The notes beneath the pieces are model-generated. The model was not told the origin of the DNA. It saw nothing but the letters and a program-made list of their open reading frames with translations, and did not search any database. From Diplonema papillatum (lineage: Eukaryota; Euglenozoa; Diplonemea; Diplonemida; Diplonemidae), in contig JAPJBO010000185.1 of NCBI GenBank assembly GCA_030068145.1, positions 62,001-126,000 of the forward strand: a DNA stretch of 64,000 nt, written 5' to 3'. Positions 9,301 to 57,426 of this stretch are shown here, in pieces (positions within the stretch are counted from its first letter, which is position 1; every line of letters starts with the position of its first letter). The translations under genes were made by a program, and so were the position numbers.

Positions 9301-9366
9301 CATCGTGTGTTACGGACCCCGTTTTTTAGACACAAAAAACGGGTCCGTAACACACCCACGCACACG

Positions 9367-9890
9367 GGCGATGAAGTACCAGTCAATCCAGAACAGCGGG
9401 TCCCACAGCGTTTAAAAGACGCTGGGATTCGCGGCGGTTCGCGGAGGCGTGTCTTTGTGCAAGGTGCGGTGGAAAAGGAGCTCGCAAGCTGGTTGCAGGA
9501 GGACGTTGTTTCACCAGCTGCGCTTCCGCGCGTGTGCCCAGCAAAAGGGGGAGAGACCGTTCCAGTCCGCACCTCCCCCCCGCCGAGCGCCTGGAGCTAC
9601 TTCTCGTACGCGCTCCTGACGCTGAAGGGCATCACGCTGTTCTTGGTCATTTTGCTGCTCGGCACCGGGTGGAGCATCCTGAAGACGGTCCTCTCGCAGA
9701 ACGACAAGCACGTGGCGCTGGCCATCCTGCCGCTGCAGATCCTTGTCATCCCCACCACCACCGCGATCACGGCCACCGAGGACCAGGAGACCAACGAGGA
9801 CAACCAGTCGTGGGCCTACTGGAAGGACATCCTGCGGTTGCTCGACATCGCGTGCTGCTGCCTCGTGCTCTTTCCGCAAACACTGACTGC
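9367..9890 (+). pseudogene. Broken partial copy of the Lu7TM exon 10091-10597
   Basis: Two pieces of the downstream exon are recognisable. Bases 9367-9410 copy the exon start with its upstream intron phrase, then run into a stop. Bases 9583-9877 copy the exon middle almost base for base, including the segment SYALLTLKGITLFLVILLLG and the later WAYWKDILRLLDIACCCLV. Around 9745-9800 an expansion changes the coding (VIPTTTAITATEDQ). After LVLFP the copy ends abruptly and no donor site follows. The real exon lies 200 bp downstream. It looks like a local duplication, not an alternative exon. Confidence 0.85.
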
Positions 9891-10090
9891 GGATTACCTA
9901 TGATTGGATGTCCAGGTGGGACCCGTTCTTGAATTCCACGCAGCACACACGCCCACGTCGGCAGCTCGGGGTCTACTCCGCACACTCAGAAATTTCCCGT
10001 TGAATCCAAACGCTCAAACACGCAAACACACGTACCCACACGCACTCACGCACACACCCACGCAAGTCCATAGCACACCCACGCACACAG

Positions 10091-10597
10091 GCGATGAAGT
10101 ACCAGTCGATACAGAACAGCGGGGCGCCGAGCGCCTGGAGCTACTTCTCGTACGCGTTCCTGACGCTGAAGGGCATCACGCTGTTCTTGGTCATTTTGCT
10201 GCTCGGGACCGGGTGGAGCATCCTGAAGCCGGTCCTCTCGCAGAACGACAAGCACGTGGCGCTGGCCATCCTGCCGCTGCAGATCCTCATCAACATCGCG
10301 ATCGCGGTCATCGAGGAGACCAATGAGGGCAACCGGTCGTGGGCCTACTGGAAGGACATCCTGCGGTTGCTCGACATCGCGTGCTGCTGCCTCGTGCTCT
10401 TTCCCTTCCTCGTGTCCTGCTTCCAGCTGCAGTCGGTCAAGGTCGAGGGAAAAGCCGCGAAGGACCTCGCCCGCCTCAAGCCCGTCCGCAGCTTCTACAT
10501 CGGGTCCATCGCGTTTTTGTACGTCACCCGCATCTTCGTCGTCGGGCTCGAGAACTACCTTCCTTTCGGCCTCACGTGGGTTGTGCCCTGGACTCAG
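10091..10597 (+). CDS. GPR107/108-like (Lu7TM) protein, internal exon b
   Basis: A 169-codon exon in phase 0 at both ends, with acceptor cacacag at 10084-10090 and donor at 10598. It encodes four hydrophobic helices. Diagnostic family blocks are TLKGITLFLV...GTGWSILKPVLS.NDK, LPLQIL.NIA..VIEE, WKDILRLLDIACCC and LARLKPVRSFYI..IAFLYVTRI. The order and spacing match GPR107/GPR108 and plant CAND-type relatives, multi-pass proteins of Golgi and endosomes. The exon ends at YLPFGLTWVVPWTQ, leaving the last helix and cytoplasmic tail for later exons, which I could not find in the next 16 kb. The start and end of this exon are both repeated in the flanking introns. Confidence 0.9.
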
Positions 10598-11022
10598 GTA
10601 TGCGTTCGGTTTCCTATAGTTTACTGTGGGTATTGGAGCTAAATACTCGAAACCGTGTGGAGAGAAGTCTTAACTCCCTACGGTACAGTTCCTGTACTTT
10701 ACCTTCCTTTCGGCCTCACGTGGGTTGTGCCCTTCACTCAAGTATGCGTTCGCTTTACTATAGTTTACTGTGGGAATTGGAGCTAAATACTCGAAACCGT
10801 GGGGAGAGAAGTCTCAACTCCCAGTTCCTGTACTCTACCTTCCTTCGGCCTCACGTGAGTTGTGCCCGTCACTCAAGTATGAGTTCGGTTTACTATAGTT
10901 TACTGTGGGAGTTGGAGCTAAATACTCGAAACCGGGTGAAGAGAAGTCTTAACTCCCTACAGTTCAGTCCCTGTACCCTACCTTCCTTTCGGCCTCACGT
11001 GGGTTGTGCTCTTCACTCAGTA
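10598..11022 (+). repeat. Tandem echoes of the exon end and 5' splice site
   Basis: The last 41 bases of the exon (from accttcctttcggcctcacg, real copy at 10557) plus about 100 bp of intron are repeated three times, starting at about 10701, 10837 and 10980, with periods of 144, 136 and 143 bp. The donor context changes from cag|gtatgcg in the real exon to caagtatgcg, caagtatgag and cagtagtgc in the echoes, which should weaken or abolish splicing there. Confidence 0.92.
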
Positions 11023-11202
11023 GTGCTCGAGTGGCAATCTGGAAAACCCGAGTGCAAGAAAACGACGTTCTCGAGTGAAGAACATAGCTTTACTGCCGGT
11101 CCACTGACTTTTCTGCATCACGAGAGGGCTACTTGCACACCAGGTGGGGGGATGCCGAAAGCGAAAAGGACGTCGTGTCGCAAATAAACTTGCTCGTGAA
11201 GA

Positions 11203-11365
11203 CCTAAAGGGGGGGGGGGCCGAATAATAGCAGTTATTTGACACACGTCTGGTTGTCTAAAAACACTACCACTATTTGATCCTGCTACTGTTCGGCTACC
11301 CGGAACTTTTATTATTATTCGACAAATCGAATAATAACACAGTGTTATTATTCGACCCCCCCCTA
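11203..11365 (+). mobile_element. Short hairpin element (MITE family A), copy 1
   Basis: About 160 bp with G-run plus CGAATAAT at the left end and ATTATTCGACCCCCC at the right. The internal sequence is itself partly self-complementary. Other copies are at 20161-20306 (reverse) and 27233-27393, sharing tggttgtct, actaccactatttgatcctg and cggctacccggaactttt. No coding capacity; the mobilising transposase family is unknown. Confidence 0.8.
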
Positions 11366-11639
11366 TACTAGCGGAGGCTAGCAGGGGCAAGTACGAAAAG
11401 AGGTAGCAAATGTGCAGCCGCCTGACGGGGTGCCCACGAAAGAGGACGCTGATGAGCCTAACGATCATAAATTCACCCACTACGGACGACGAACTCAAAC
11501 GCACACGCCCCAGGAAGCAGTCGCTGTCATCTTTTACGCGTTCGCGGGGCATCATTTCCGTCCTACCGACACCAATCCGCTGCTCTACCACGACGTATGC
11601 CATACCAGATTCTTTCGTAAAAATACTCGACGTAGCTGC

Positions 11640-11900
11640 TTCGACTCCGAATGAAAGGGGGGAAATATAGAGGTAACGGGCAAATACAATACAAACACAA
11701 TCTGATTTGTTCTTCGCTTACACCACCGTTGTTTTCTCACTCAGGACTTTTGACCTGTTGTGTTTGTGTGATTTGTCGTGTGGGGTAGACCCTCATGACC
11801 TCACGTCCGTTCAACACGTGGTTCGGTAGTTACAGCACTTTGGATCCCTTCTGTTCTTTGTCGGGCAGCATCGTCGAGCATTTCCTTTCAAGCTGCATTG
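11640..11900 (-). repeat. Dispersed repeat, inverse copy of 26930-27222
   Basis: This segment is the reverse complement of the sequence that follows kinase exon 1 at 26930-27222 (shared blocks aggaaatgctcgacgatgct, cacacaaacacaacaggtca). Both copies sit beside a family-A hairpin element, so the two may be parts of one larger mosaic. A third, diverged copy starts near 55300. Confidence 0.8.
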
Positions 11901-12010
11901 TAAACACGAAAGAGGACGCTGGCTGCGTGTTCAGGAGAAGATTAGCCTTACGATCATATTCACTGGCATTCACTAGCAGGCTTTTCCGCCCCGGGCACGT
12001 ACAAACAAGG
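11890..12010 (+). repeat. Leader-like repeat shared with 61510-61625
   Basis: The blocks gtaaacacgaaagag, acgctggc, gagaagattagcct and gatcatattcac, ending cacgtacaaacaa, match the sequence just upstream of the ATG at 61627. No zinc-ribbon ORF follows here, so this is a detached leader. AT-rich (ta)n sequence follows to about 12110. Confidence 0.65.
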
Positions 12011-12113
12011 GTAATATACAGATATATGCGCACTTTATTGTCTTTTTTGCAAATATATGCATGTTCGTACAAACATGCATATATATATATATAATATGCA
12101 TATGCATATGAGT

Positions 12114-13705
12114 CGATGCCAAAAGGGGGGGGGGGTTTGGGCGGAAAAATCCCCGCATAGTTCACCAGGGTCTGACGGGTACTGAGGCCCCATACCTTTC
12201 CTAAAACATGATTCTGCGTTCAAATACGCCCTCAGAAGCCTCCGGAGAGCCTTCTATGATGTCCCAAATGCGATTTTATGGGTTTTTAGGGGGTCCCCCC
12301 GTCTGTTGGCCGTAAACCGCCATAGTAGACACATATGCAACCTGATGCTGGGTCGCTCCTCGGAGCTAAATCCCGGCCTAAACACACGTTTTCGGCGTTC
12401 TCTATCATTCTCAAGGTGCATTCGACCCTCGGACTTCATAAACTATCTCGCTTACAGGTGTTCCGGGGTGTGCAAAAACAAGGCGAATGGACCCTACAGA
12501 CCGTACCACGCCCTGCCTGTCTATACAGGCTTTGGGGTCAAATTGCACCGGCTTTGGCGCCATATGCACCGTTTTGGTCTCGTTTGTGCTGCTTTGGGAT
12601 CCACTAAGAACTCTGGTCTGATTTGCGGGACGCTTTGCTCGGTTTTGGCGCCCACTTTCACCGTTCAAAGTGCATCCAGTGGTGAAGACTTTGCGCCGAA
12701 GCTGGAGAGGAAGCGACCCAGTAGGCGCCACTTCACCGTGAGCGGGTCTCGGAACAGGACTCAAACTGTGGCCCAGGTGATACTGCCGATGGCGGGTGTG
12801 TGCGCCACACAGTTTGTCTGACCAAGCTCACTGCACAGAGAGAGCTTGCCACACCTCCCTCGGCATGTGCCGCCTGTGCAAAGTCATCCAGCGAGAAGCA
12901 CTTTGCAGCCATGGGTGAGAAAGATGCCAGAAGGGAAGACATTGCCAGGAAAGCTCTGAAAGCCTGCCCTGAAAGCGGTGAAGCCTGCTTCAAAATCATG
13001 AAGTGAACGCGTCGTAGTCAACCGCTTCGACGACGATTGAGAACGGCTGATGATCGCCTGTTACTTAACGCTTGTCCTACTTCGTTCACCAAGCCTTGCA
13101 GAACCACCAGAATAGCGTAAAATGATGCAGGTAGAAGCCTGAACAGGCCTTAGAACAGTGAAAGTGGGCGCCAAAACCGAGGAAAGCGTCCCGCAAATCA
13201 GACCAGAGTTCCCAAAGCAGCACAAACGAAGCCCGAAACGGTGGATATGGCGCCAAAGCCGGTGCAATTTGACCCCAAAGCCTGTATAGACAGGCAGGGC
13301 GTAGTTCGGTCTGTCCCGAATGCAGGGGGCCATTCTCCTTATCTTTTCAGCCCGGAACACCTGTGAAACCACGAAACCCGAGGGTCGAATGCACTTGGAG
13401 ATCGCTAGAGAACGCCGAAAACGTGTGTTTGGGCTGGGATCTTGCACAGAGAAGCGACCCAGCATCAGGTTGCATATGTGTCTTCTATGGCGGTTTACGG
13501 CCAACAGGCGGGGGGACCCCCTAAAAACCCATAAAATCGCATTTGGGACATCATAGAAGGCTCTCCGGAGGCTTCTGAGGGCGTATTTGAACGCAGAATG
13601 ATGTTTTAGGAAGGTTATGGGGCCTCAGTACCCGTCAGACCCTGGTGAACTATGCGGGGATTTTTCCGCCCAAACCCCCCCCCCCCCCCCCCCCTTTTGG
13701 CATCG
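12114..13705. mobile_element. Foldback element, two 555-bp inverted arms
   Basis: Arms at 12114-12668 and 13150-13705 are inverted copies, beginning cgatgccaaaag plus a G-run and containing gtttgggcggaaaaatcccc and ggtctgacgggtactgaggc. The 480-bp spacer includes 12735-12890, a diverged copy of 5040-5215 encoding a Cys-rich phrase (CAACAKS here, MCRLCK at the other site). There is no transposase. The arms contain short open frames but none is recognised. Homopolymer G/C runs differ in length between arms (about 12 versus 20). Confidence 0.85.
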
Positions 13706-14117
13706 TACCATATATTTGCAAAAAAAACTGCATTTTGCGTATGCATGTCACAAAAAGTTGCAGTTTTCTGCGCATATATCTGCAAGTTTCCCTACAAACA
13801 AACACACGCAAATATTTTCCAACGGTCTCGCTGCCGGAGAAGGATTAAATTGCATTGGCTAAGAGACACGTGGCAAGAAACACGAAACCTCCCGTTTCTG
13901 TGCATCCAGACCAGGTGGGCAAGAGAATGGCCCCTCAAAAAGCTAAGAAGGGTGTCCACAGCAGGGCTTACGCTCCGTTTTCGGTCTCAGAAAAAATACG
14001 TGTGGTCCACACGTGGACGGCTTAAGGTTCGGGGGGACGAAAATAACCCTTTTCCCCCTATGTGCCGACTCCACAGTGTAAGATCGCGGGTGCAAGGAAA
14101 GAAAGGAAAAAGGAAAA
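13706..14117. other. No recognised feature
   Basis: An AT-rich start (13710-13800) is followed by moderately GC-rich sequence. A 162-codon open frame overlaps the foldback C-run and has no recognisable domain, so I do not call it a gene. Confidence 0.4.
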
Positions 14118-14390
14118 AGGCCGCTCCTCGAGGAACGTGACGGTCGACCACAGCTTGCAAAGCGTGAGTCGGAGGCAGCACAGTGCTACAACCCCGTCCG
14201 CTCTGCCCTGTGGCTGACCGTCTCGACGAGCTTGTGTTCAGCGCAAGCGCCAAGTCCCAAGGTGCGCCACGCCTTGATGCTTTAGTTGGGGAAATCGGTA
14301 GCCACTTGACCCGTAGCCTGCTCTGCATGCCGTGAAGCTTGGCTCCCGTGTAGCAGGCTTTCCCTGGTACCTAAGGCGCGGGTGCAAAAA
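14118..14390 (+). repeat. Dispersed repeat shared with 27480-27690 and 55175-55270
   Basis: Blocks cacagcttgcaaagc, gagtcggaggcagcacagtg, gtccgctctgccctgtggct and ggtagccacttgacccgtag recur at 27480-27690 in the same orientation and, in part, reversed at 55175-55270. The downstream 14334-14390 stretch is instead inverted relative to 27400-27440, so these mosaics have been rearranged. Confidence 0.75.
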
Positions 14391-14432
14391 GAACGTTTCC
14401 CACATACGGACGAACTACGCCATGTATATAAG

Positions 14433-15067
14433 TTAACCACATACGGACGGAGGGGGGGGGGGTGAGTTAATTTGGGAAAGAGGGACTTTACTGGCTGTCA
14501 CCTGACTTTTCCGCATCTCTCTCGGCTACTTTTCTGCACTGCAGACGGACTTTTCTGCACTTGTGACTTTTGTGTTTTCTAGGTGCACAAACGGGGGGAA
14601 GGGCAGGAAACACAAGTGTGGGTCATTCTGGACCGCTCCGAGGCGCTTTTGATGGTGTCTAAAGGAGAAAAGGAAGGTGACGAGGGAACGCCAGCGGCAC
14701 TAGTCATCAGACTCGGAAGAGGCCTCGGAAGATACCCTGGAAATGGAAGTCTGCGTTGCTGGTGCGCTGCCAAGATTCAGGGCGGAGCTCGAGCCCATGG
14801 TGATGTTTGTCACACTAGTGGGGGCAAGACCAGCAGACGGAACAGCCTGCGATGGAATGGCAGCAACGGGAGCTGCGATTCGCTCTTACCCTCCTCTTTG
14901 TGCGCATGAATCCAATGAGTTCCTCGTACCTGTCTCAGTTTCCGCACTTTCAAGGAACGGCTGCTGTTGGGAAGTGCGGAATGAAGGAGACGTTACCGTT
15001 TCAATGCTTGGAAAATACATCCAGACCATTCGACGTAAAGATATGTCACCCATCCGTAACGGGTTGA
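14433..15067. mobile_element. Non-autonomous piggyBac-like element
   Basis: The left end is TTAA then ccacatacggacgg plus a G-run. The right end is ccatccgtaacggg followed by ttga, a one-base-mutated TTAA. The ends and the G-rich left border resemble the element at 5734-8069. The 630-bp interior has open frames up to 109 codons in all three frames but no transposase motif. Confidence 0.6.
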
Positions 15068-15133
15068 GATAGGACTGCGGCCGGATCATGAGAAATTTTG
15101 TAGTGCCAGTTTTTGGTGTCGCTGCTGTGTATT

Positions 15134-15355
15134 TCTTTTGTATAAGCACCTGCTTTGTAGGAAATGCTTGAGGAGACTGCCAGTTGCAAAATATCAAAGG
15201 AGGTAAATGTGCTGTAGCCCACACGAAACACAGGTGAATCTGGGTTTAGTAGTAGCGTAAGCGTTCAACAAAAAAGACCCACTTTGTAGTTGTATTGTTT
15301 TCTCCTCCTCTAGCCTCCTTCGAAATGAGCACAAGGCAGTCCCTCGAGTATTTTT
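15134..15355 (+). repeat. Dispersed repeat R3, copy 1
   Basis: About 220 bp shared with 18803-19020 and 62330-62545: gcacctgctttgtaggaaat, ggtaaatgtgctgtagccca, tctgggtttagt and cctccttcgaaatgagcaca. A short reversed piece forms the 5' flank of the LINE at 21395-21430. Confidence 0.85.
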
Positions 15356-15529
15356 GTGGATGTCACCAGAGCAAGACCCCCGCCGCTGTTGTGAGTACAG
15401 ATCAAACCCGGCAACCAACCGTCAGACGAGCCAGCACGAAGACTTCGAGTCGCAACCTACTGTTCCGCTGAGGCACCCGGACGATAAGCTGCACGACATA
15501 AAGGTATGAGCTCCTTTTAGCTTTTTGCG

Positions 15530-16510
15530 TTTCCAGACAGTACTGTGCACCCACAATTGCTATCCATGCGATCCCTTGTGGGAAACCGAACCTATATGTG
15601 AGTGGAAGCGTCTAAAGGCAACCCACGATTTGCGTATACATCCTGCAACAGCCGGAACAGATGACTTGCCATTCCGCGCGTTTCCTTGTGGGAAACCGAA
15701 CCTACATGTGAGAGGAAGCGTTTAAGGCAACCCACGATTTTGCGTATACATCCTGCAACAGCCGGAAGAGATGACTTGACGTTCCACGCGATTCCTTGTG
15801 GGAAACCGAACCTTTTTAGTGGAAGCGTCTAAAGGCAACCCACGATTTGCGTATACATCCTGCAACAGCCGGAACAGAGGACTTGCCATTCCGCGCGATT
15901 CCTTGTGGGAAACCGAACCTTTTTAGTGGAAGCGTCTAAAGGCAACCCACGATTTGCGTATACATCCTGCAACAGCCGGAACAGATGACTTGCCATTCCG
16001 CGCGATTCCTTGTGGGAAACCGAACCTTTTTAGTGGAAGCGTCTAAAGGCAACCCACGATTTGCGTATACATCCTGCAACAGCCGGAACAGATGACTTGC
16101 CATTCCGCGCGTTTCCTTGTGGGAAACCGAACCTACATGTGAGAGGAAGCGTTTAAGGCAACCCACGATTTTGCGTATACATCCTGCAACAGCCGGAAGA
16201 GATGACTTGACGTTCCACGCGATTCCTTGTGGGAAACCGAACCTTTTTAGTGGAAGCGTCTAAAGGCAACCCACGATTTGCGTATACATCCTGCAACAGC
16301 CGGAACAGATGACTTGCCATTCCGCGCGTTTCCTTGTGGGAAACCGAACCTACATGTGAGAGGAAGCGTTTAAGGCAACCCACGATTTTGCGTATACATC
16401 CTGCAACAGCCGGAAGAGATGACTTGACGTTCCACGCGATTCCTTGTGGGAAACCGAACCTACGTGAGTGGAAGCGTTTAAAGGCAACCCAAACTTGCCG
16501 ATCCATGTGG
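15530..16510 (+). repeat. Tandem array, about 108-bp unit, 9 copies
   Basis: Each unit starts near ccttgtgggaaaccgaacct and contains caacccacgatt, tgcgtatacatcctgcaaca and gccggaa. Two unit types alternate (ending tacatgtgagagg or tttttagtgg), which indicates amplification of multi-unit blocks. Confidence 0.92.
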
Positions 16511-21450: not shown

Positions 21451-22665
21451 ATGCCAAGCGACGGCGAAGTGCTGTTAATTGGGGACGACGAACTGCATGC
21501 AGCGTTGGAGAAAGTTTACTCACTGTGCGGCGAGGTTAGCGAAGTGAAGAAGGTCATGGAGAGCATCGGGCAGGTTGCGCGGGTGTCGAAGGTGCGCAGT
21601 GCGGGCGGGTACTACAAGGGTAATGTAGTCAAGCTGCTGGAGATGGAGGGCGAATGTGACTTGCTCCAGCTGACGAGAGCCGCCGCGGAGCACCGATTCT
21701 CGATCAACCCAGCGGCGTGGATCATCACCCCCCCTCAGGGGATTGAACTCGAAGCTTTTCAGAGGCGCACCGCCAGAGACGACCCCTTTTCCAACCCCCC
21801 TTCTGACTTAATAGAGGCAATGGAGAAGGTCGGCATGAAGGCGTCGATACTGCGCTACTCGGCCACGGGGTATCGTGTATACGCCGACCGGGAGTCGGAG
21901 GGGCTGATTGGCGCCTTCGCTGAGAGGTTGGACGCCGCTGGCATTGCGGTCAAAAGGGATGGAGTGTTCGTGAAGTCGAAAGAGCAGGCGGCAAGGGACA
22001 GGGAGGCATACAGGGAACGGCAAAGGGAGGAGTACGGGGTTGTTGGCCTCAGCAGGACGCTGGCGGACTACGAGGTGCAGTTGGCTCTGAACCACGCAGG
22101 GGTGACAGCTGACGTCGAACTGGTTCCCGCGTACGGGCTGACGAGGACGACAACGACATTTGTGGTGAAGGGATTGGACGACGAGGAGGAGGCGCTTTTA
22201 CAAAGTCTGCAGATCAAGATCGGTGGCAGGGACATACGTTTTGGAAGGCTCGGGGTGATGGTGGGTGCTGGAGCCGAGTCCGTGCAGTCCCCCGGAACGT
22301 ATGCCCAAGCAGCAAGTCGCAGCGAGGCCAGCTCAGCGGGGGAAGAAGCCGACGAGGGACTCCTGGGCGGGAAGGGACAGGAAAGCAGGCCCCTGGAAGT
22401 GAATGGAAAGAGCAACGACAAAGCGGCTTCGAAAGGGCGTGGAGCTGGAAAGATGGGCAAGGGAGAGAAAGCAAAGGGAGGCGGGAGGTCGGCTGCTGTG
22501 GAGTACACGGTGGGCGCGAAGCGGAGCCTGGCGCGAGAGGGCGAGGGGTCATTGTCCCCGCCGGCGAAGAGTAAGCCCGGGGAGCGGGGGGGGGAAGGCG
22601 GGATGGAGACATCTCCGCCGGGAACCCCCCGTCCTAGGGTCGACCCCGAGGACGGCTCATATTAG
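21451..22665 (+). CDS. LINE ORF1 protein
   Basis: 404 codons from the ATG at 21451, which follows an A-run; the frame is open further upstream but only through repeat sequence. The first 270 residues are well-mixed and probably folded. The last 130 are rich in Gly, Lys, Ser and Glu (GKGQESRPLEV..., KMGKGEKAKGGG) and look like a basic disordered RNA-binding tail. I see no CCHC knuckle. The position upstream of an endonuclease-RT ORF, with only five bases between stop codon and the next open frame, supports the ORF1 role of RNA binding and chaperoning. Function is inferred from position. Confidence 0.75.
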   Translation: MPSDGEVLLIGDDELHAALEKVYSLCGEVSEVKKVMESIGQVARVSKVRSAGGYYKGNVVKLLEMEGECDLLQLTRAAAEHRFSINPAAWIITPPQGIELEAFQRRTARDDPFSNPPSDLIEAMEKVGMKASILRYSATGYRVYADRESEGLIGAFAERLDAAGIAVKRDGVFVKSKEQAARDREAYRERQREEYGVVGLSRTLADYEVQLALNHAGVTADVELVPAYGLTRTTTTFVVKGLDDEEEALLQSLQIKIGGRDIRFGRLGVMVGAGAESVQSPGTYAQAASRSEASSAGEEADEGLLGGKGQESRPLEVNGKSNDKAASKGRGAGKMGKGEKAKGGGRSAAVEYTVGAKRSLAREGEGSLSPPAKSKPGERGGEGGMETSPPGTPRPRVDPEDGSY

Positions 22666-26560: not shown

Positions 26561-26911
26561 ATGAATCGGTATAAAGTGCACAATGTGATCGGCGACGGCG
26601 CCTACGGCTTGGTGATGAAGGCGTCGGTGAACGACACGGGCGACGTTGTCGCCGTCAAGAAGATGAAGCGCAAGTTCTACAACTGGCAAGAGTGCATGGA
26701 GCTGCGGGAGATCAAGAGCTTGAAGAAGCTGAGCCACCCGAACATCGTCAAGCTCAAGGAGGTCGTGCGAGAGAACGACGAGTTGTTCTTGGTCTTCGAC
26801 TTCTGCGAGAACAACTTGTTCCAGCTGATGAACAATCTCAAGTCGTTCCCGGAACACGCCATCCGCCACGTCATGAGCCAGCTTTTCCAGGCGCTCGCCT
26901 ACATGCACAAG
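26561..26911 (+). CDS. MAK/ICK (RCK) family protein kinase, exon 1
   Basis: 117 codons from an ATG to a phase-0 donor (aag|gtatct). It encodes the kinase N-lobe: glycine loop IGDGAYGLV, the beta-3 lysine in VAVKKMKRKF, the helix-C Glu in CMELREIKSLKKL, then HPNIVKLKEVVRENDELFLV and FDFCENNLFQLM. The helix-C and hinge sequences are typical of the RCK group (MAK, CILK1/ICK, MOK), CDK/MAPK relatives that act at cilia and flagella to control length and intraflagellar transport. The ATG lies one residue before the usual family start (RYKV), so I take it as the true start. The poly(A) of a retroposon ends only 140 bp upstream, leaving little promoter space. Confidence 0.93.
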
Positions 26912-29199: not shown

Positions 29200-29365
29200 C
29201 TGACAAACCAGACTCGCACCGCAGTCCTGTCTGCAGACACTCAGGTTCCGCGCTGATGATGGTCCGCCTTATGTGTCCGTGGCTTAAAGGACCGAAACAC
29301 GGCGCAGACGGGACCAGTGCGGTGTTGAGCACATACCTATTCCAAGCACGTTCTTGCAAAACCAC
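29200..29365 (+). repeat. 165-bp dispersed repeat, copy 1
   Basis: accagactcgcaccgcagtc through ccattccaagcacgttcttg-type sequence, ending gcaaa. Copies also at 29695-29855, 55520-55670 and 63300-63462. No RNA or protein assignment; a 34-codon open phrase (MVRLMCPWLKGPKH) is shared but probably coincidental. Confidence 0.85.
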
Positions 29366-29694
29366 CCGGTGCCCCCCACGTGCATGTATGCACGGGGGGG
29401 CCCAGGGCCACATTCATTGCGAATGTGTTCGTGGTGTCGGTCGCAGGAGTCTCTTTTTTTGGCTAGCCAAAGTGAGAAAAAGAGTGAAAGAGTACGTACA
29501 GTAGTGAGAAGAGAAGAGAACGAGCGTAAAAGAAGTTGGCGGTAGCACAAACTTCGGGCCAGCGGAGACCACCGCAAAAAGATTTCTAATGGTTCCTTAT
29601 CCCTCAAAACCAGCACCAAAAACAACGACGGATTCGCCTGTGCCCTGGTAGCACGGGTGGTCCTGGCTGTGACGTGCTACGAACAGCCGCCGAC

Positions 29695-29855
29695 TGACAA
29701 ACCAGACTCGCACCGCAGTCCTGTCTGCAGACACTCAGGTTCCGCGCTGATATGGTCCGCCTTATGTGTCCGTGGCTTAAAGGACCGAAACACGCCGCAG
29801 ACGGGACCAGTGCGGCGTTGAGCACATACCCATTCCAAGCACGTTCTTGCAATCC
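29695..29855 (+). repeat. 165-bp dispersed repeat, copy 2
   Basis: The same unit as 29200-29365. An extended shared upstream flank (gacggattcgcctgtg ... gaacagccgcc) is present at both sites, so the larger block of about 240 bp was duplicated locally. Confidence 0.85.
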
Positions 29856-29899
29856 ACCCGGTGCTGGTGCACACCGTGCGGGAAACCGATCAGGGGGAT

Positions 29900-48800: not shown

Positions 48801-48805
48801 GGGGG

Positions 48806-49062
48806 TACCCACCCACCCCTCGTTGCCGTCCGGCTGACAACGATGCCGAGTTTAGGGGCCTTAGCATCAGCACTGGGGGGGGGGCAAACATCAACAAATT
48901 TTTAAAAAATGCTATGCTTTTACGACGTACTGCGTACTCCACTCACCACAGCTTCCACGGGCCTTTAGAAGGCTGCCTGAACATTCCAAAACGTGGCTTC
49001 TAGTGGTGGCACGCACCTCGCTCTTCCAATAAGCAACATATATCCACACCAGGGCCCCTGGG
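48806..49062. other. Upstream region of the WD40 gene
   Basis: 257 bp between an array and the first in-frame ATG. A cacaccag acceptor-like site lies 11 bp before the ATG, so this exon could instead be internal. No TATA-like motif is obvious. Confidence 0.4.
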
Positions 49063-50138
49063 ATGGCGGAACATGAAGCGGAAGGAGAACTCAAGCCGGG
49101 GGAAGAAGCAGAGGAGCAGCAGCCTCCTGCCGATGAGTACTCAGGCGAGCCGGCACCGGACGCGCGCGCCGACGACGTCGGCGACGAGGGATCCGGGCTG
49201 AAAGTCTGGAACAACGCGGCCGGCCTTTCTCCTAAGGGACCCCCGCCCTCCGAACCCGACGCGAACGGTGCCGGCACCCCGCCCCCAGGGACGCCAGAGC
49301 GGCTGTCGGAGCCCGCCAACGGCGGGAACCTCGAAGAAACCCCCGCAGCAGCGGAGCTGCCGCCGGGAGGCGATCCGCACGGTGGTGGAGAGGGTGGTGT
49401 GGTCATGGAGATCCCGGAGCGCTCGTCCCCGTGCCCAGGCGCGCACGCGGGGGGCCCGCCGAAAAAGGCAGCCCGCGCCGGGGAGAAGAGGCTGGGCAAG
49501 GCGAAACCTGCCAAGCAGCAGCAGCTGCAGCAGCTGCAGCAGTTGCAGCAGCAGGTTGACGGCGTCGAGCGCCTGCGGGAAGAGGGCAAACGGAATCGAT
49601 CCGAAGAAGACCAGCTCTCGAAAAAGACGCAGGAGCGGCACATCCTCTCCACGGCCGCAGCCCGGCAGCGCGTTGAAGAAATCAAGGCGGAGCAAGCTGC
49701 CAGAGCCCATCGTCGCACGCAGAGCACAGCCACCCCCGCGTTGTCCGCCAGCCACGCGGACCCACACGGCAGGCAGCAGCTGCGCCCCCGGCTGTCCTCC
49801 CGGCGGTACCTGCCGACCAATTCGGCGGCGTCGCCGCTGGACGACGCGATCTTAGTAGACGGCTTCGCCGACTCAACGTGGCGGTCGCGCACGGGCGTGA
49901 GCCCGACTCGGTCGAGGGGGTCCCGGTCCGGCCGTGTGCACTCTCCGTCGCCGTCTGTTTTGTCGGCGAAGTCGGGCACGCCGCGGCGGCCGGCGGTTGA
50001 CCAACGCGGCTCGGTCTTCAAGAGTGCCACGGTCCGCTTCCGAAAGGGTGATATCATGGGTTCGGGTGGCGTGCCGCTCATCACTACCAACCAGTCGGAG
50101 CGGACGCCCCTCGCTTCTCACCAGCATGCCGAACATAC

Positions 50139-50140
<2 letters not shown>
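49063..50140 (+). CDS. WD40-repeat protein, first recognised exon
   Basis: 359 codons plus one base (phase 1), from the first in-frame ATG after a stop at 49030, to donor acatacag|gtgtgt. The product is mostly disordered: acidic start (AEGELKPGEEAEEQQ), Pro/Gly-rich middle, then a Gln-rich helix (QQQLQQLQQLQQQVDGVERL) continuing as charged coiled coil to about residue 215, then Ser/Arg-rich sequence. Near the end KSATVRFRKGDIMGSGG may begin the folded part. The phase-1 end joins exactly to the exon at 54619. A broken copy of residues about 115-190 lies at 37555-37990. A (GT)n tract follows the donor directly. Confidence 0.75.

Positions 50141-50176
<36 letters not shown>
50141..50176. repeat. 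(GT)n microsatellite at the 5' splice site
   Basis: About 17 GT dinucleotides begin at the first intron base, giving many overlapping GT donors; slippage here would not change the exon end. Confidence 0.9.
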
Positions 50177-50177
<1 letters not shown>

Positions 50178-50236
50178 GCGGACCCGTTTTAACGTGGTGC
50201 CTCCCTTTACGAAAGTACGACCACGCTCATTTATGG

Positions 50237-51172
50237 CTAGGTAACGGCCGATGCACCCTCGGGCTGGGAGTGGGGGTCTCTGTTCGCTCTTCTGTTTGCA
50301 TGGTGCTTCGGGCAGCAGCTGGCTAATGCTTCGTTTGCTACTACGCAGTCGCCGCAGCGTCCTAGTCTGTGTGCTGTGCTTCTTCCTGCCGCTTCAGCCT
50401 TCGTCTTCCAATCCGGCTTTCCCTGCGTCCACCCTGCCGGATAGGCCTCCTCTGGCAAAAAAGTTGCGGCCCATCCCAGATGCGGAGGGAACGGGCTGTT
50501 TTCTTGTTGGTCTGGCCGATTTTCTCGTGTGTGTTCGCGTATCTTCATGATCACATCCTCGGTCGCGGTCAATAACTGTGCACGCCTCGAAACACCCCGC
50601 ACAACCGTTCCTCCCACAGATGTCAAAACGGTGGTGGAGTATTCATGGCCGCAGAACCACGGCTGTGCAACCACCTTCCCATACGCCTTCCCCATTTCGA
50701 TGAGGCTGAGCGCTTTTCCTAGACCGGACCGGCGGAAGTTTGCCAGCATGGTCTCTTGTTGCTGCCGGGTGGGCCTTTGGCGTTGCACCAGGTCCATGGC
50801 GGCGTTGCTGAGCGCGTCCGCGTCTGTATTCTGCTCCCGCGCAACGTGCTCAATGTGCAGTGTCAGCCGTCTCTGCAGGGACGACACCTTCAAGGCCGCG
50901 CGCGTCAGATACGGCTTCAGTTCCAAAAAGGGGCAGAGCCACCCGTCCTCGGACATGTTCTCGAGGAACCGGGGCGAAATCTCTTTGGGTAATGACCCTT
51001 TGAGGCAGGCTTCGCTGCCGCGCTTCCCGCACATGGCGCAGAAAGCGCCCTTGATGTGGATCTTCCCACAATCAAGGCAACAATCAGGGTCTTCGTCGGC
51101 GGCGTTCCATCCCTCGGGGGCGAGGACCACCTTGATGGGGGACCAGTCGTAGGCCTTCAGGTCAACCGCCAT
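50237..51172 (-). CDS. Zinc-ribbon/RNase H-tail ORF (retroelement-like), antisense in WD40 intron
   Basis: 311 codons from an ATG preceded by a leader shared with 62705-62930. Residues 1-25 read VDLKAYDWSPIKVVLAPEGW; then comes a zinc ribbon CCLDCGKIHIKGAFCAMCGK. Next is a block SPRFLENMSEDGWLCPF, and HIEHVAREQNTDADALSNAA, which matches the closing motif of retroelement RNase H (final catalytic Asp). The rest is unrecognised. The N-terminal module recurs at 61627 and 62929. It could be the start of a retroelement polyprotein fused to its RNase H tail by internal deletion. Function unknown. Confidence 0.6.
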   Translation of the reverse strand: MAVDLKAYDWSPIKVVLAPEGWNAADEDPDCCLDCGKIHIKGAFCAMCGKRGSEACLKGSLPKEISPRFLENMSEDGWLCPFLELKPYLTRAALKVSSLQRRLTLHIEHVAREQNTDADALSNAAMDLVQRQRPTRQQQETMLANFRRSGLGKALSLIEMGKAYGKVVAQPWFCGHEYSTTVLTSVGGTVVRGVSRRAQLLTATEDVIMKIREHTRENRPDQQENSPFPPHLGWAATFLPEEAYPAGWTQGKPDWKTKAEAAGRSTAHRLGRCGDCVVANEALASCCPKHHANRRANRDPHSQPEGASAVT

Positions 51173-51179
51173 TCTGCAC

Positions 51180-51310
51180 GAGCAATATTTTTGTTTGTGC
51201 GATTTAACCTGTATGTGATTTGGTTAAACCGCTGCCAACGTTCTTTTTAGCTGTAACAAATACTGTCTCCAGGGAAGCAGAAATTGGTTGTCGCAAAAAA
51301 GACGTCGACA
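51180..51310 (-). repeat. Leader of the zinc-ribbon ORF, shared with 62705-62800
   Basis: gacagtatttgttacagcta, aaaagaacgttggcagcg and ttaaatcgcacaaacaaaaa precede the ATG here (minus strand) and the related ORF at 62929 (plus). It probably contains the promoter or 5' untranslated region of the family. Confidence 0.7.
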
Positions 51311-51393
51311 CAGGACAATCTGGATTCAGTGCCAGGACGTTAGCGTTCAGCAAGGGATCCGCTTTGTGGTTGTATTGTTTCTCCCGCCGCCTA

Positions 51394-52024
51394 CTGGGGG
51401 GGCCCAAATACAATAGGTATAATATTGTATTTGGAGGGGAAGGATAGAGAAAACAGGGTTTTCAAACAGTCTGGATGCTGATAGTCTGGCTGCAGGCGCT
51501 TGCAGGTCAACATTAGAGAAAATTTGGCAAATATTTTGTGGGGTGGAAAGAGCTACCCCCGGCATGTATGGCACCTTTTCTACACTCGATGTGGCCAAAA
51601 ATCTGGCCCCCAGATGGCATTTCAGACTTTGGAAAAACCACTCCGCCGAGGAATCGAACCAGCACCCTCAGCATCACATGTGGGTGTGGTGACCGCTGGA
51701 CCACGGGCTAAAAAAAGTGGGCCATTGATTTTTGTTTGGGTGCGGGCCTCAGGAATTATTGATCCCTGACCTGAGGAAAATGCCACAGATAGCGAAATCA
51801 AGTAGTCGACTCGAACTCTCGGCTTCAGGAGTGTTCCACATTGAACTTCTCTCGAAAAAGAAGCTGCTCTCGCGAGGGGAAGCCCGTGACCCCCTGCAAA
51901 ACCCCACTGGGACAAATAATATTGTATTCCGAAACAATGCTCAACGAAACCCCCATTTCAGCGTACCTACTGTATTCCGAAATAATATTGTATTTGGGTA
52001 CCTATTGTATTTGGGCCCCCCCAG
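51394..52024. mobile_element. TA-flanked hairpin-ended element (631 bp)
   Basis: Perfect inverted ends CTGGGGGGGCCCAAATACAA followed by taggta, flanked on both sides by TA (51392-51393 and 52025-52026), as expected for Tc1/mariner-type insertions. It interrupts a sequence resembling dispersed repeat R3 (ttgtattgttt ctccc ... gcctcc). Additional internal caaatacaatatt phrases lie next to both ends. No transposase. It contains a tRNA-like stretch on the minus strand. Confidence 0.78.
51641..51710 (-). ncRNA. tRNA-like sequence with Pol III A and B boxes
   Basis: On the minus strand tggtccagcggt fits an A box and ggttcgattcc matches the B box consensus exactly, about 40 bases apart. A D-arm (gtggt/accac) can form, but the acceptor and T stems pair poorly, so this is probably a decayed tRNA or SINE head and not a working tRNA. 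I cannot assign an anticodon. Confidence 0.45.
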
Positions 52025-52254
52025 TAGCCTCCGTCAAAAGCTCTCGAGCAAGCGTTAGCTCCAAAAGAAAAAATCTTATTTTAGGGCGGAAACAACCCGC
52101 ACCACGTGAAGCACCGCAAGTGCCGTGAAACCCAAGCACCACACTGCGAGAAAATACATATAAACGCGGACAACAGACCGGTACGGGCTACAAGGCAACC
52201 CCTGCTCAACTTGTAGAACGTGGGGGCCCAAGACTACACTCCACGAAGGAATGT

Positions 52255-52440
52255 ACTTGGTGTCGGTCACAAACAGTCCCGGACATGGCTAGCCATGACC
52301 CAAAACGAAAGCGTGCACTAAATATACAACCCGTAACCACATAGCCCTTTCTTGCTCTAAGAGAACCCATTCATGAACGGTCGCACGGGGACCCTAAACC
52401 CCCGGAATTTCAAGCGAACTTTAACTCTAAAAATCACCGG
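52255..52440 (+). mobile_element. Introner-like repeat, forward copy
   Basis: Full-length unit: gtacttggtgtcggtcacaa, cagtcccggacatggctagc, tatacaacccgtaacc, ctttcttgctctaagagaac, gaccctaaac, cccggaatttcaagcgaact, ttaactct. It lies in the WD40 gene intron in the sense direction; no exon directly follows this copy. Confidence 0.75.
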
Positions 52441-53100
52441 GGGTGCCGCTCCGGATTCAGTACTCGATGACTTCTGGGGAAGAGACTCGGCTTCGGATGC
52501 AACTTCAACCACCCAAACAACAGGCAATCCGAGCTACGGTGTGTCCACTGTGGCGCTTCGCAAACGGTACCCGAAGCCAAGCAGGTAGGTTCTTATCCCA
52601 TTCGAAAACAAAACTGCGGTGCGACGTACTGGCAAATCCTACACAAAACACACCAATCTGTACGCCCGGAAGCACAAAGCGCGGCATCGAGGGTTTTCTT
52701 GTGCAGTCTCCGTTGATGAACCACCTGGAATGGCGGGAAGCCCTCACGGTTACAAAACAGACTGTCTTCAATGGCATGTGTGCAAGGGGTCCATACTCAT
52801 GGCCCACCCGTTCACTCCGAAACACGCCTGAGGACCCCATGCCTGCCTGGTGCTGGTAGAATAGAATGTACGCAGTTTACCCAATGACAACCCCATTGCC
52901 AAACAACACACGAATCAGGTGGAGTGTCGAGCATTGGGGAGATCGAGCGCAGTGTGTCGGAAGGGCCGCGTGCGATGCGAGATGTATGCAGCGTTTCCTC
53001 TTTGCGCCCGTGGCTTGCCCACAAATATTACGAACCGGCCGCTGGCTGCGCGCACTGCGCCGTTTAATGTGATAAAAGGCTGCCCAACCGCACTGTCTTT
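52441..53100. other. Intron sequence, no recognised feature
   Basis: Moderately GC-rich with short open frames in every phase and no domain. Bases 52505-52860 are open on the minus strand for 111 codons without recognisable content. Confidence 0.4.
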
Positions 53101-53870
53101 CTGTGCTAGCTGCCCACACTGCACTGTTTCAAAGATGCTACGCTGCACTGTATCAAAGTGCCAAAAAGCTGCTCACACTGCACCATCTTAAGAAGCCACC
53201 CACACTGCACTGTATCAGCTGCCTGCACCGAACTGTTGTTTGAAAGTGTTTGAAAGCTGCCCATATTGCATTGTTTCAAAGTGCTGCACTGCACTGTATC
53301 AAAGTGCCAACAAGCTGCTCACACTGCACCATCTTAAGAACCCACCCACACTGCACTGTATCAAAGTGCCAAAAAGCTGCTCACACTGCACCATCTTAAG
53401 AACCCACCCACACTGCACTGTATCAGCTGCCTGCACCGAACTGTTGTTTGAAAGTGTTTGAAAGCTTCCCATATTGCATTGTTTCAAAGTGCTGCACTGC
53501 ACTGTATCAAAGTGCCAACAAGCTGCCCACACTGCACCATCTTAAGAACCCACCCACACTGCACTGTATCAGCTGCCTGCACCGAACTGTTGTTTGAAAG
53601 TGTTTGAAAGCTGCCCATATTGCATTGTTTCAAAGATGCTACGCTGCACTGTATCAAAGTGCCAAAAAGCTGCTCACACTGCACCATCTTAAGAACCCAC
53701 CCACACTGCACTGTATCAGCTGCCTGCACCGAACTGTTGTTTGAAAGTGTTTGAAAGCTGCCCATATTGCATTGTTTCAAAGTGCTGCACTGCACTGTAT
53801 CAAAGTGCCAACAAGCTGTTCACACTGAAAGTGCTGCAGTGCAGCGAGTCAAACTGCCAACAAGCTGTTG
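53101..53870. repeat. Compound array based on cacactgcactgtatcaaag
   Basis: Higher-order units of about 150-240 bp containing gctgcccatattgcattgtt, tcaaagtgctgcactgcact, caccatcttaagaacccacc and ctgcctgcaccgaactgttg in the same order, repeated about four times with internal deletions. Confidence 0.9.
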
Positions 53871-54200
53871 TCACACGTACACACAAACGAACAGGTAGCA
53901 TTCTGTGCGACAGCACGGTGTGGTCAGCCGTGTGCTCAATCACTTAAACCAGTCTCAAAACAGGGGTTTCACACGTACACACAAACGAACAGGTTGTATT
54001 CTGTGCGACAGCACGGTGTGGTCAGCCGTGTGCTCAATCACTTAAAACAGTCTCAAAACAGGGGTTTCACACGTACGCACAAACGAACAGGTAGCAATCT
54101 GTGCGACAGCACGGTGTGGTCAGCCGTGTGCTCAATCACTTAGTATCATTCTGTGCGACAGCACGGTGTGGTCAGCCGTGTGCTCTATCACGTAAAACAG
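53871..54200 (+). repeat. Tandem echoes of the 3' splice site and start of exon 54619
   Basis: The first bases of the exon (gtatcattctgtgcgacagc, acggtgtggtc) with a preceding ag occur four times, starting at about 53895, 53993, 54091 and 54143, with spacing 98, 98 and 52. Each copy keeps about 40 exon bases, then turns into ctcaatcacttaaa and caaaacaggggtttcacacg filler. Small substitutions (gtagc, gttgt) distinguish them from the real exon. Confidence 0.93.
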
Positions 54201-54209
54201 TCTCAAAAC

Positions 54210-54340
54210 AGGGTACGCACAAACAGTCCCGGACATGGTTAGCCATAACCCATAACGAAAGTGTACACCATATATACAACCCGTAACCATGTAGCCATTT
54301 CTTGCTCTAAGAGAGACCCCAGTTAACAACGGGTGTGGTC
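54210..54340 (+). mobile_element. Introner-like repeat, truncated
   Basis: cacaaacagtcccggacatg through ctctaagagagaccccagtt; the tail is missing and it passes directly into a copy of exon sequence at 54337. Confidence 0.75.
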
Positions 54341-54442
54341 AGCCGAGCGCAGCGGCGACATCACCATCCGGGAGAAGGACGTGGAGCGCGACGCCGACGC
54401 GCCGGCGATCACGACGATGCTCTACGTCCCCTCGAGCATGAA
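54337..54442 (+). pseudogene. Internal echo of exon 54619-55119
   Basis: gtgtggtcagccgagcgcag, gacatcaccatccgggagaa and on to ctcgagcatgaa reproduce 54642-54771 with one internal deletion (gggaccgtgttcgccatc is missing). The copy is sandwiched between two introner-like units, so the block exon-piece plus introner appears to have been duplicated as one. Confidence 0.9.
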
Positions 54443-54612
54443 CACACAAACAGTCCCGGACATGGTTAGCCATAACCCACAACGAAAGTGTACACCAAAT
54501 ATACAACCCGTAACCGTATAGCCCTTTCTTGCTCTAAGAGAGACCCCAGTTAACATCGGTCACACGGAGACCCTAAACTCCCGGAATTACAAGCGAACTT
54601 TAACTCTAAACA
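54440..54612 (+). mobile_element. Introner-like repeat abutting the 3' splice site of exon 54619
   Basis: A unit ending caagcgaactttaactctaa, followed only by acaaaacag before the exon starts. The repeat tail therefore provides the sequence next to the acceptor, as expected for an introner-type insertion or a re-used intron end. Confidence 0.75.
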
Positions 54613-54618
54613 AAACAG

Positions 54619-55119
54619 GTATCATTCTGTGCGACAGCACGGTGTGGTCGGCCGAGCGCAACGGCGACATCACCATCCGGGAGAAGGACGGGACCGTGTT
54701 CGCCATCGTGGAGCGCGACGCCGACGCACCGGCGATCACGACGATGCTCTACGTCCCCTCGAGCATGAAGGGCGGCCGCGTGCTGGTCGGGCACAGCGAC
54801 GGGTCGATCCTGTGCCTCGACGCCACCACGGCCGAGCGGTGCAACCAGCAGGACGTCTTTTTCCACTCGTCCGACGTCACGCACCTGTCCCTCGTATACT
54901 ACGGCATCTCCAGCTCCCTCGCTATCAGCGCGTCTGAGGACTGCACCATGGTCCTCTTCGACGTGCACACGCTCGACACAGTCAGCTCGTTCATGCAGCA
55001 CCCCTCTCCCGTCCTCTCCGTCGTCACGTGCGGCCCGTACACGTACTCGGGCTGTGCCGACGGCTCCTTGCACGAGTGGGATACGAACACGTCCCTTCTT
55101 CTCTCCAGCCACTCGCTCG
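54619..55119 (+). CDS. WD40-repeat protein, second recognised exon
   Basis: Phase-1 exon of 501 bp (acceptor aaaacag, donor ctcg|gtatgc). It encodes several WD40-type blades: STVWSAERNGDITIREKDG, VLVGHSDGSILCLDATT, LAISASEDCTMVLFDVHT and YTYSGCADGSLHEWDTNT. The repeated D-G-S/T-hydrophobic followed by W/F-D pattern is typical of beta-propeller scaffold proteins. I cannot name the subfamily. Both junctions keep the frame with 50140 and 57113. Copies of its first 40 and a further 100 bases lie just upstream. Confidence 0.88.
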
Positions 55120-55479
55120 GTATGCGTTTTATTTTATTTAGCCACATGCAATGTGTGAGGAAACTGAACCGCCCAGAGCGGACGGGGTTGCGGCACTGTG
55201 CTGCCTCCGACTCAAGCTTTGCAAGCTGTGGTTGACCGTCACGTTCCTGGACCAGGAGCGGCCTTTTTCTTCTGCTTCTTCTTCTTCTTCTTCTTTTCAT
55301 AAGCGCCAGCTTGGAAGGAAATGCTCGACAAAAGCTGTCAGACAAAGAACCGAAGGGATCACAAGTGCTGCAACTACCAAACCACGTGTTGAAACGGACG
55401 TGAGGTCACGCAGGTCTTGCCCAAGGCAATCCCATTGGGATATAAGGAAATTCCACCATACCTACCACCCCCCGTGTTT

Positions 55480-55915
55480 AAGATCGCGCCCTCCCCCCCC
55501 CCCGTGCTATACGATCTAAGACTCACACCGCAGTCCTGTCTGCAGACACTCAGGTTCCACGCTGATGATGGTCCGCCTTATGTGTCCGTGGCTTAAAGGA
55601 CCGAAACACGGCGCAGACGGGACCAGTGCGGTGTTGAGCACATACCCATTCCAAGCACGTTCTTGCAAACCCCCCCGTGTATAAGATCGGGTTTTTTGAG
55701 AAATGAGGGCGATCTTATACAGGGGGGGGAGTGGGGTGGGGTCCCGCGCAGCGGGAAATTTTTTTGGGCCTTTTTACTGTGGGGGGGTTCAGGGCCCCGC
55801 GCAGCGGATTTTTTTTTTGGGTGTTTTTGTCCCCCCCCCCCGTGTATAAGATCGGTTTTTTTGGGGGGCGATCTTAAACACGGAAAAACGCGATCTTAAA
55901 CACGGGGGAGGGTAG
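55480..55915. repeat. cgtgtataagatcg motifs with G/C runs
   Basis: At least five copies of the phrase (C-run)gtgtataagatcgg or its inverse (cgatcttatacag, cgatcttaaacacgg) in opposite orientations, forming nested hairpins. Confidence 0.75.
55520..55670 (+). repeat. 165-bp dispersed repeat, copy 3
   Basis: Same unit as 29200-29365. It sits between two cccccgtg..ata..gatc phrases (55495 and 55668), consistent with insertion into one of them. Confidence 0.85.
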
Positions 55916-56001
55916 GTAACAGTTATAATCCCGGAAACCTTTGAAACTCCGATTCTCTAGCAATTCTCCTTCTAAAAACGGCCCCCAATCCCCCTCAACA
56001 G

Positions 56002-57112
56002 GCAGTGGGCCCGTGCTGGACCTGCTGCTCCTCGGCCGGCACCTCTGGTGCGCGATTGGCATATGCATACCTGGTCACTCTACCACAAATGGTCACCCGT
56101 GACCGTAACCCCCCGATTATCTCCACCGAACTTGCCTTTCAAGCGAACTTTCATTCTAAAAAAACTTCCTTGCTTTTCACGCCGTAGCAGAACGACCACA
56201 CCCTACCCAATCCCAAACACCCCCTAAACGCGTTAGGGGACTTCACAAGGGTTCACAACGGAGTGACACATCACCCGAAACGAGCGGCACCCTCTCACTT
56301 TTCTCAACCCCCTCCACACCCAAGCCTCTGCGGTCAACCGGAGACTTTAAAATACCAACCTTCTAATCCACAAGTAACGCTATAAAACCTTACACCCCCC
56401 CAACAGGCAATGTGCCCGTGCTGGACCTGCTGCTCCTCGGCCGGCACCTCTGGCGCGCGATCTCCGCCCACGGCACCATATGCATACCTGTTCACTCTAC
56501 ACCCGTGACCTTAACCTCCCGATTATCTCCACCGAATTTGCCTTAAAACCTTCAAGCGAACTTTCACTCACCCCCCAACAGGCAATGGGCCCGTGCTGGA
56601 CCTGCTGCTCCTCGGCCGGCCCCTCTGGGGCGCGATCTCCGCGCACGGCACCATATGCATACCTGTTCACTCTACACCCGTGACCTTAACCTCCCGATTA
56701 TCTCCACCGAATTTGCCTTCTAAAACCTTCAAGCAAACTTTCACTCACCCCCCAACAGGCAATGGGCCCGTGCTGGACCTGCTGCTCCTCGGCCGGCCCC
56801 TCTGGCGCGCGATCTCCGCGCACGGCACCATATACATACCTGTTCACTCTACACCCGTGACCTTAACCTCCCGATTATCTCCACCGAATTTGCCTTCTAA
56901 AACCTTCAAGCGAACTTTCACTCACCCCCCAACAGGCAATGGGCCCGTGCTGGACCTGCTGCTCCTCGGCAGGCCCCTCTGGCGCGCGATCTCCGCGCAC
57001 GGCACCATATACATACCTGTTCACTCTACACCCGTGACCTTAACCTCCCGATTATCTCCACCGAATTTGCCTTCTAAAACCTTCAAGCGAACTTTCACTC
57101 ACCCCCCAACAG
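56002..57112 (+). repeat. Tandem echoes of the 3' splice site and start of exon 57113
   Basis: Five upstream copies of the acceptor plus about 70 exon bases (gtgctggacctgctgctcct) start at 56002, 56407, 56582, 56759 and 56936; the real exon is the sixth, at 57113. The last four intervals are 175, 177, 177 and 177 bp. Each unit ends with an introner-like tail (cgaactttcactcaccc). Since 177 is divisible by three, the last copies are open and in frame with the real exon, encoding GNGPVLDLLLLGR repeatedly. Confidence 0.95.
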
Positions 57113-57426
57113 GCAATGGGCCCGTGCTGGACCTGCTGCTCCTCGGCCGGCACCTCTGGTGTGCGATCGGCGTGAGCTCCGCGCACGGCGCGCCGCTGCT
57201 GATCCTCGACATCACGTCCATGTCGGTCGCAGCCGCCCCGCTCACCGGCGCGGCGGCGCCGGGCGCCGGCACCCGCCACGCCAGCTCCAGTGCCGGCAGC
57301 AACCACAGCTCGCACAGCTTAGCGGACGGCGCCCCCACGTCGACTTCCCCCGTCAGCCTCGTCAACATCGGCCACACCGTCTGGAGCGTACATAGCGACG
57401 GGTCCATCATCGTTTGGAATGCCCAG
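57113..57426 (+). CDS. WD40-repeat protein, third recognised exon
   Basis: 314 bp, phase 1 at the start and phase 0 at the donor (gcccag|gtacag). It encodes GPVLDLLLLGRHLWCAIG, a strand DITSMSV, a low-complexity Ala/Gly/Ser/Thr loop of about 45 residues, then VNIGHTVWSVHSDGSIIVW, another WD-type blade. Only this copy continues past the echoed part, so it is the functional exon. The first residues after the junction (G-N/S-G-P) are kept in all echo copies. The chain is open at the donor; the next exon would lie beyond the retrotransposon that starts 20 bp later and was not found. Confidence 0.88.

Follow-up and report, generated by a model that had tools for sequence, protein, structure and literature searches.

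The closest described counterparts of the sequences reported here come from the same organism. The part of the Diplonema papillatum genome paper that deals with "repeat-bounded gene structures" (Valach et al. 2023, PMC10161547; published assembly of 280 Mb in 6181 contigs) describes dozens of gene models with adjacent repeats of their 5' regions or of the 3' ends of their first exons, and the cases already published there include first introns that hold repeats of exon 3' ends. The gene SufC (DIPPA_19968) is presented in Fig. 2 of that paper with 12–13 tandem partial copies of about 400 bp lying upstream; the array has long-read support and is absent from the mature mRNA. Here we analyse a stretch of 64,000 nucleotides of D. 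papillatum DNA, hereafter the window (positions 62,001 to 126,000 of contig JAPJBO010000185.1, or C185:62001–126000, in an assembly of 271,365,524 bases and 2910 contigs), in which the edges of one exon of a GOST_TM-type gene and of two exons of a WD40-type gene are repeated in the neighbouring non-coding DNA. We call these copies echoes. We consider it probable, at roughly 0.85, that ordinary local tandem duplications account for the echoes, that they arise at a very high rate in this genome and are filtered by selection, and that a machinery specific to splice sites is not needed for their explanation.

As in the structures described in that part of the genome paper, terminal gene pieces and adjoining non-coding DNA are tandemly repeated in the window beside one intact copy, and the units join coding and non-coding sequence (177 bp made of about 121 bp of intron and 56 bp of exon; 144 bp made of 43 bp of exon and about 101 bp of intron). 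Among the literature matches listed, only PMC10161547 fits the subject of diplonemid repeat-bounded exon repeats, and by its description of them the echoes of the window belong to this kind, already in print. Whereas the published structures, as described there, concern gene 5' regions and the 3' ends of first exons, the window also echoes the acceptor edges of two exons that follow an AG, those starting at 54619 and 57113. Relative to the same description, the new elements are these echoed acceptor edges and a rate measured with a quantitative null test.

Two more general phenomena offer themselves for comparison. Minisatellites and intronic tandem repeats form head-to-tail arrays of mutually diverged copies with units of tens to hundreds of base pairs, and the arrays of the window are likewise head-to-tail and made of diverged copies; unlike in minisatellites, however, the unit includes coding sequence, which makes its origin visible. 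In intron gain by tandem duplication, the new intron is bounded by two copies of a duplicated exon segment that contains AGGT. The duplications in the window resemble those of this route (for example PMC4974935) in covering splice-signal sequence, but the duplicated stretch already holds an intron border, and it is existing introns or flanks that become longer.

Exon echoes in the window

Copies were located by self-BLAST and Tandem Repeats Finder (TRF), gene identities were assigned by Pfam profile match, and exon edges were inferred, without RNA, from the coding score and the AG and GT signals. An earlier note, made from the letters of the window, had claimed copies at four exon edges in two genes, and both programs taken together recovered copies at all four. 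The first two edges belong to a single exon:

9343–9410, plus strand: acceptor-edge echo upstream of exon 10091, 87% identical to 10066–10133
9581–9875, plus strand: second part of the upstream echo, a copy of the exon body, 91% identical to 10125–10404
10091–10597, plus strand: exon, intact copy with echoes on both sides; Pfam GOST_TM at 9.5e-14, above the curated cut-off; AG at 10089–10090, GT at 10598–10599
10555–11019, plus strand: array of 144-bp units (TRF, 144 bp x 3.3)

The protein encoded by exon 10091–10597 is of the GOST_TM seven-transmembrane type, and we take the product to be GPR107-like; a search of phage DNA with this exon returned no match. The copy of the exon start that had been placed at 9367 is present at 9343–9410 and reaches further than had been thought, since the exon body follows at 9581–9875. 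Between the two parts of this duplicated copy lie about 170 bp of unrelated sequence (9411–9580), and a near-perfect hairpin with one bulged base, ttacggaccccgttttttagacacaaaaaacgggtccgtaa, stands at 9310–9350, just before the echo. The three copies claimed for the exon end at 10597 take the form of the array with period 144, the unit of which consists of the final 43 bp of the exon and about 101 bp of intron. The inferred donor lies in the first unit and three echo copies come after it, in which the donor GT is retained, with TCA starting at 10738, 10873 and 11017.

The other two edges are acceptor edges of the WD40-type gene (a slash marks the exon border; X is a dispersed repeat treated below):

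53871–54213, plus strand: array of units of about 98 bp with a shorter final copy, containing the first 41–46 bp of exon 54619 (TRF, 98 bp x 2.8 at 53871–54142)
54332–54442, plus strand: internal piece of exon 54619, 84% identical to 54641–54769, flanked by two copies of X
54619–55119, plus strand: WD40-type exon, intact copy, with WD40-type propeller matches; donor CTCG/gtatgcg
55991–56060, plus strand: outlying acceptor-edge copy of exon 57113, 94% identical to 57102–57171
56396–57168, plus strand: array of 177-bp units (TRF, 177 bp x 4.4, 97%)
57113–57426, plus strand: intact copy of the exon that follows in the WD40-type gene, with an in-frame, stop-free join to 54619–55119

The WD40-type Pfam matches found in exon 54619 reach significance (2e-08 for the best), yet they stay under the curated cut-offs. 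For exon 57113 Pfam gave nothing credible, and the exon was assigned to the same gene because it joins exon 54619–55119 in frame and free of stops, the two meeting at their inferred original borders. For exon 54619, everything claimed of its start was found, namely four copies and one internal piece. The four copies, of 41–46 bp, begin at 53890, 53988, 54086 and 54143 (extent 53890–54183), are 87–93% identical, reach E values of 1e-12 or better within the searched stretch, and lie inside or just past the 98-bp-unit array; the X copies flanking the internal piece occupy 54218–54314 and 54445–54619. The five copies claimed for the start of exon 57113 correspond to the one at 55991–56060, within a wider and older outlier (55991–56138) that is 77% like the array unit, and to four in the array. 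Each 177-bp unit contains about 121 bp of intron followed by the first 56 bp of the exon, and the real exon start is taken to be that of the final unit. The motif aacag/GCA is kept at all six acceptors of this region, real and decoy. From the three nearest decoys (56581–57112) reading would proceed in frame and without stops into exon 57113, adding 59, 118 or 177 residues, and from the two farther ones it runs into stops.

At these edges the units stand head-to-tail, with coding and non-coding sequence joined and one copy intact, and the identity among copies ranges from 77 to 97%, a divergence which shows that the copies are of different ages. The pieces at 9343–9875 and at 54332–54442 are split or separated by other sequence. 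The intact exon is the last copy in the acceptor-side echoes and the first in the donor-side ones, an arrangement that spares the gene. As the earlier note had argued, the copies hold intron and exon sequence jointly, which excludes processed RNA as their source, and retro-copied RNA was rejected for that reason; an introner origin was rejected because the copies are local and carry exon pieces. The note had also seen in the echoes a possible route to new introns. At the four edges, however, the copies lengthen an existing intron, and none of them shows a new intron bounded by two copies of a duplicated AGGT-containing exon segment.

Comparison with random placement

The rate at which echoes occur was examined in 264 kb of C185, window included, and the results of this section refer to that one contig. 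A codon-score scan gave 76 segments, from which the exon set (n = 33) was drawn: 32 of them were picked by eye because they looked host-like, stood on the plus strand and were not echoes, and one kinase exon was added; the 44 segments left out were transposon-like, minus-strand, low-complexity or echo pieces. Local direct repeats were defined by a spacing of 30–3500 bp, a length of at least 35 bp and an identity of at least 75%, with pairs of simple sequence or low complexity filtered before counting, and the null was a random relocation of the same clusters, each shifted as a block. Entered edges were sometimes about 20 bases off (for example 142606 in place of 142625 and 152225 in place of 152246 for two ctgB exons), and the acceptors were rechecked.

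The impression of frequent local tandem duplication was well founded, with 86 duplication clusters and 66 merged tandem arrays with units of at least 30 bp in this sample. An echo, that is a copy outside exons, was found at 12 of the 33 exons, against 12.6–12.7 expected (P = 0.66), and on the 13 echoed sides the copy lay upstream nine times and downstream four times. Over six settings, observed and expected numbers were 12/12.7, 12/10.3, 12/11.1, 12/8.6, 11/7.6 and 11/9.8, with P values, in the same order, of 0.66, 0.30, 0.40, 0.13, 0.087 and 0.41. Sides on which the duplication spans the exon edge numbered 10, with 9.8 expected, in the first setting and 8–9, with 5.5–8.8 expected, in the others. 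The special link to splice sites that the earlier note had supposed did not emerge from these numbers: within the power of the test, duplications across junctions are no commoner than the background, the outcome that the note had itself named as refuting its idea.

Clusters with both copies in exons were scarce (0–1 against 10–14 expected). When three long open reading frames with internal repeats were entered in full, their number rose from 1 to 5, against 14.4 expected (P = 0.003). Duplications within exons are about three times rarer than expected, or rarer still, and the duplication background is roughly uniform apart from this loss.

Echoes elsewhere in the genome

A search for WD40 across the genome gave 745 candidates; 150 of these were scored, and four loci had, by eye, near-identical local repeats within a few kb. 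At C766 a WD40 gene with a single open reading frame, presumably RACK1-like, has its 5' part present in six copies, of which only the last is complete; no such array was found in the 3.2 kb examined of its paralogue at C167 (99% identical over 1249 bp). The 5' part is repeated at C141 and the 3' part at C769. C194 consists of two whole-gene copies and was rejected as an echo. SufC, at C37:309421–310137, is the sole one of 13 matches over the family cut-off, and its upstream array, from about 830 to 6038 of the locus (L028), contains about a dozen partial copies of 376–432 bp followed by one intact open reading frame, in agreement with the published array of this gene.

Echoes of the same kind occur at gene ends outside cis-introns, the repeated coding piece at C766 and SufC having no cis-intron. 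Spliced-leader RNA genes and trans-splicing are named in the part of PMC10161547 that touches on them. As gene starts in diplonemids are spliced-leader acceptor sites, the repeated 5' flanks of C766 and SufC may hold such an acceptor.

The dispersed repeat X

Beside the echo pieces there recurs a dispersed repeat of about 200 bp, X, with the end ...TTTCAAGCGAACTTTAACTCTAAA. Besides the one at 54218–54314, its copies in the window include:

54445–54619, plus strand: X copy, 87% identical to the X copy at 52242–52440; the shared end ...CTCTAAA stands about 9 bases before exon 54619
52242–52440: further X copy
9116–9307, minus strand: further X copy

Genome-wide, X gave 41 scored matches and 1531 first-look candidates, and its exact 24-base end occurs 1867 times. 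X ends lie on the majority strand of their contig at 85 of the first 100 listed places, with 66.6 expected (0 of 20,000 simulations). All the host-like exons delimited on C185 lie on its plus strand, and of the X ends on this contig 22 are plus-strand and 2 minus-strand; four of the 22 adjoin a delimited exon start, with 0.2 expected (0 of 5000), and the nearest CAG acceptors to these four lie within about 25 bases. Introner-like elements make up entire introns, nearly identical in many genes and accompanied by target-site duplication; X by comparison offers only its 3' end near exon starts, at those four of the 22 plus-strand ends, and in two copies inspected by eye no target-site duplication was seen.

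The sequence ACAGG lies at most 12 bases past the X end at 63 of the 1867 occurrences, against about 34 expected from the base composition of 20 sampled flanks, and the backward-pattern control gave 0. Among the first 20 of these 63 sites, seven open directly into coding-like sequence at a score above 3 or above 5, against 21% and 14%, respectively, of 302 ACAGG sites of the contig, and three do so at a score above 12, against 9%. Within about 470 bp of 20 unfiltered X ends, the forward coding score exceeded 12 in eight cases (in two of them the other strand scored higher still), compared with 23% of random stretches. The genome-wide excess is modest, and X as a general acceptor was kept as a lead only. 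X may supply acceptor signals or insert close to exons, or it may be that its ends survive at such places. The array at 56396–57168 contains tails resembling X, and of its several intact acceptors three are in frame. It is conceivable, if unlikely, that X acts as a portable splice acceptor, whose 3' end would provide the last intron bases in the orientation of transcription and which would form duplicable modules of X plus exon, arrays such as this one giving proteins that differ in how many 59-residue inserts they have.

A second dispersed repeat, of about 160 bp, is present at 29210–29368, 29704–29863, 55519–55677 and 63303–63467, with 95–99% identity; parts of it also occur in the region of the C766 array, at 88–92%.

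Other features of the window

The kinase gene of the window was said in the earlier note to lack echoes, and with this we agree, none having been found at the three kinase exons as delimited here:

26561–26911, plus strand: first kinase exon, without detected echo; Pfam Pkinase at 1.5e-27, above the curated cut-off

The reading frame at 22638–26171 matches RVT_1 (Pfam). Downstream of the WD40-type exons, at 57562–60937, there are transposon-like frames that look SAP-domain-like, recombinase-like and reverse-transcriptase-like by eye. A 44-bp satellite fills positions 1–4616 (105 copies, 97%, TRF) and appears again just before the window, at C185:59283–60000, with 97–98% identity.

Discussion

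The data are best explained by local tandem duplications that would arise everywhere in the genome, the units of the echoes measuring about 100–900 bp and some of them having probably been broken up later by other sequence. The duplicating step may be replication slippage or unequal exchange. Selection would act as the filter: duplications inside exons would harm the protein and be mostly lost, and a unit running from non-coding DNA into an exon would give one intact exon beside an incomplete copy within the intron or flank. Since duplications of the latter kind leave an intact exon, they would persist and be recognised by their coding part. Several points weigh against such an explanation. 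The number of echoed exons was slightly over expectation in five of the six settings (the largest difference being 11 against 7.6, P = 0.087), and an enrichment of up to about 1.5-fold is possible. The sample was a single contig, with 33 exons that we chose ourselves from a coding-score scan and with an edge accuracy of perhaps 30 bases. C766 and SufC, given the possible spliced-leader acceptors in their 5' flanks, may be compatible with a link to acceptors as such. Finally, some duplicated units include the end of X, which might promote duplication.

The first of these points, together with the four edges in two genes of the window and the echo at 12 of the 33 contig exons, could speak for a process linked to splice junctions, which would favour duplication across AG/exon and exon/GT borders and drive the growth or gain of introns. 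We regard such a process as very improbable, because no setting gave a significant excess over random placement (the smallest of the six P values being that 0.087), because the echoes of gene starts and gene 3' parts at C766, C769 and SufC involve a coding piece without a visible cis-intron border, and because the four edges of the window have gained no intron. It is less far-fetched, though still unlikely, that X, with its 3' end lying in some places directly at an exon start, promotes duplication, for instance through repeat-mediated exchange or a faulty transposition, the echoes then marking X insertions. X ends do adjoin echoed pieces at C185:50467, at 141390 and 142370 of ctgB, in the C766 array and at exon 54619, and the part of the C167 paralogue that was examined has neither X nor the array. 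However, the repeats at exon end 10597, at exon 80791 and exon end 119574 of ctgB, and at SufC contain no X match, the ctgB exon 152246 is preceded by X yet has no echo, and some co-occurrence is to be expected because X is very abundant. An assembly artefact made of mis-joined repeats is hardly credible. Repeat regions, mostly dispersed, do account for 52% of the published assembly according to the part of PMC10161547 concerned with them, but the copies differ mutually by 3–23%, and the same source, where it treats SufC, gives PacBio read support for the array of that gene; the divergence and this support both reduce the doubt.

Ordinary local tandem duplication under selection therefore remains our preferred explanation of the echoes, and the echoes themselves have practical consequences. 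Annotators of diplonemid genomes should be cautious of the false exons and decoy splice sites that such copies present. The array at exon 57113 provides a ready test of the choice of acceptor among near-identical sites. The genome as a whole constitutes a natural experiment on how frequently local duplication touches genes and on what selection removes.

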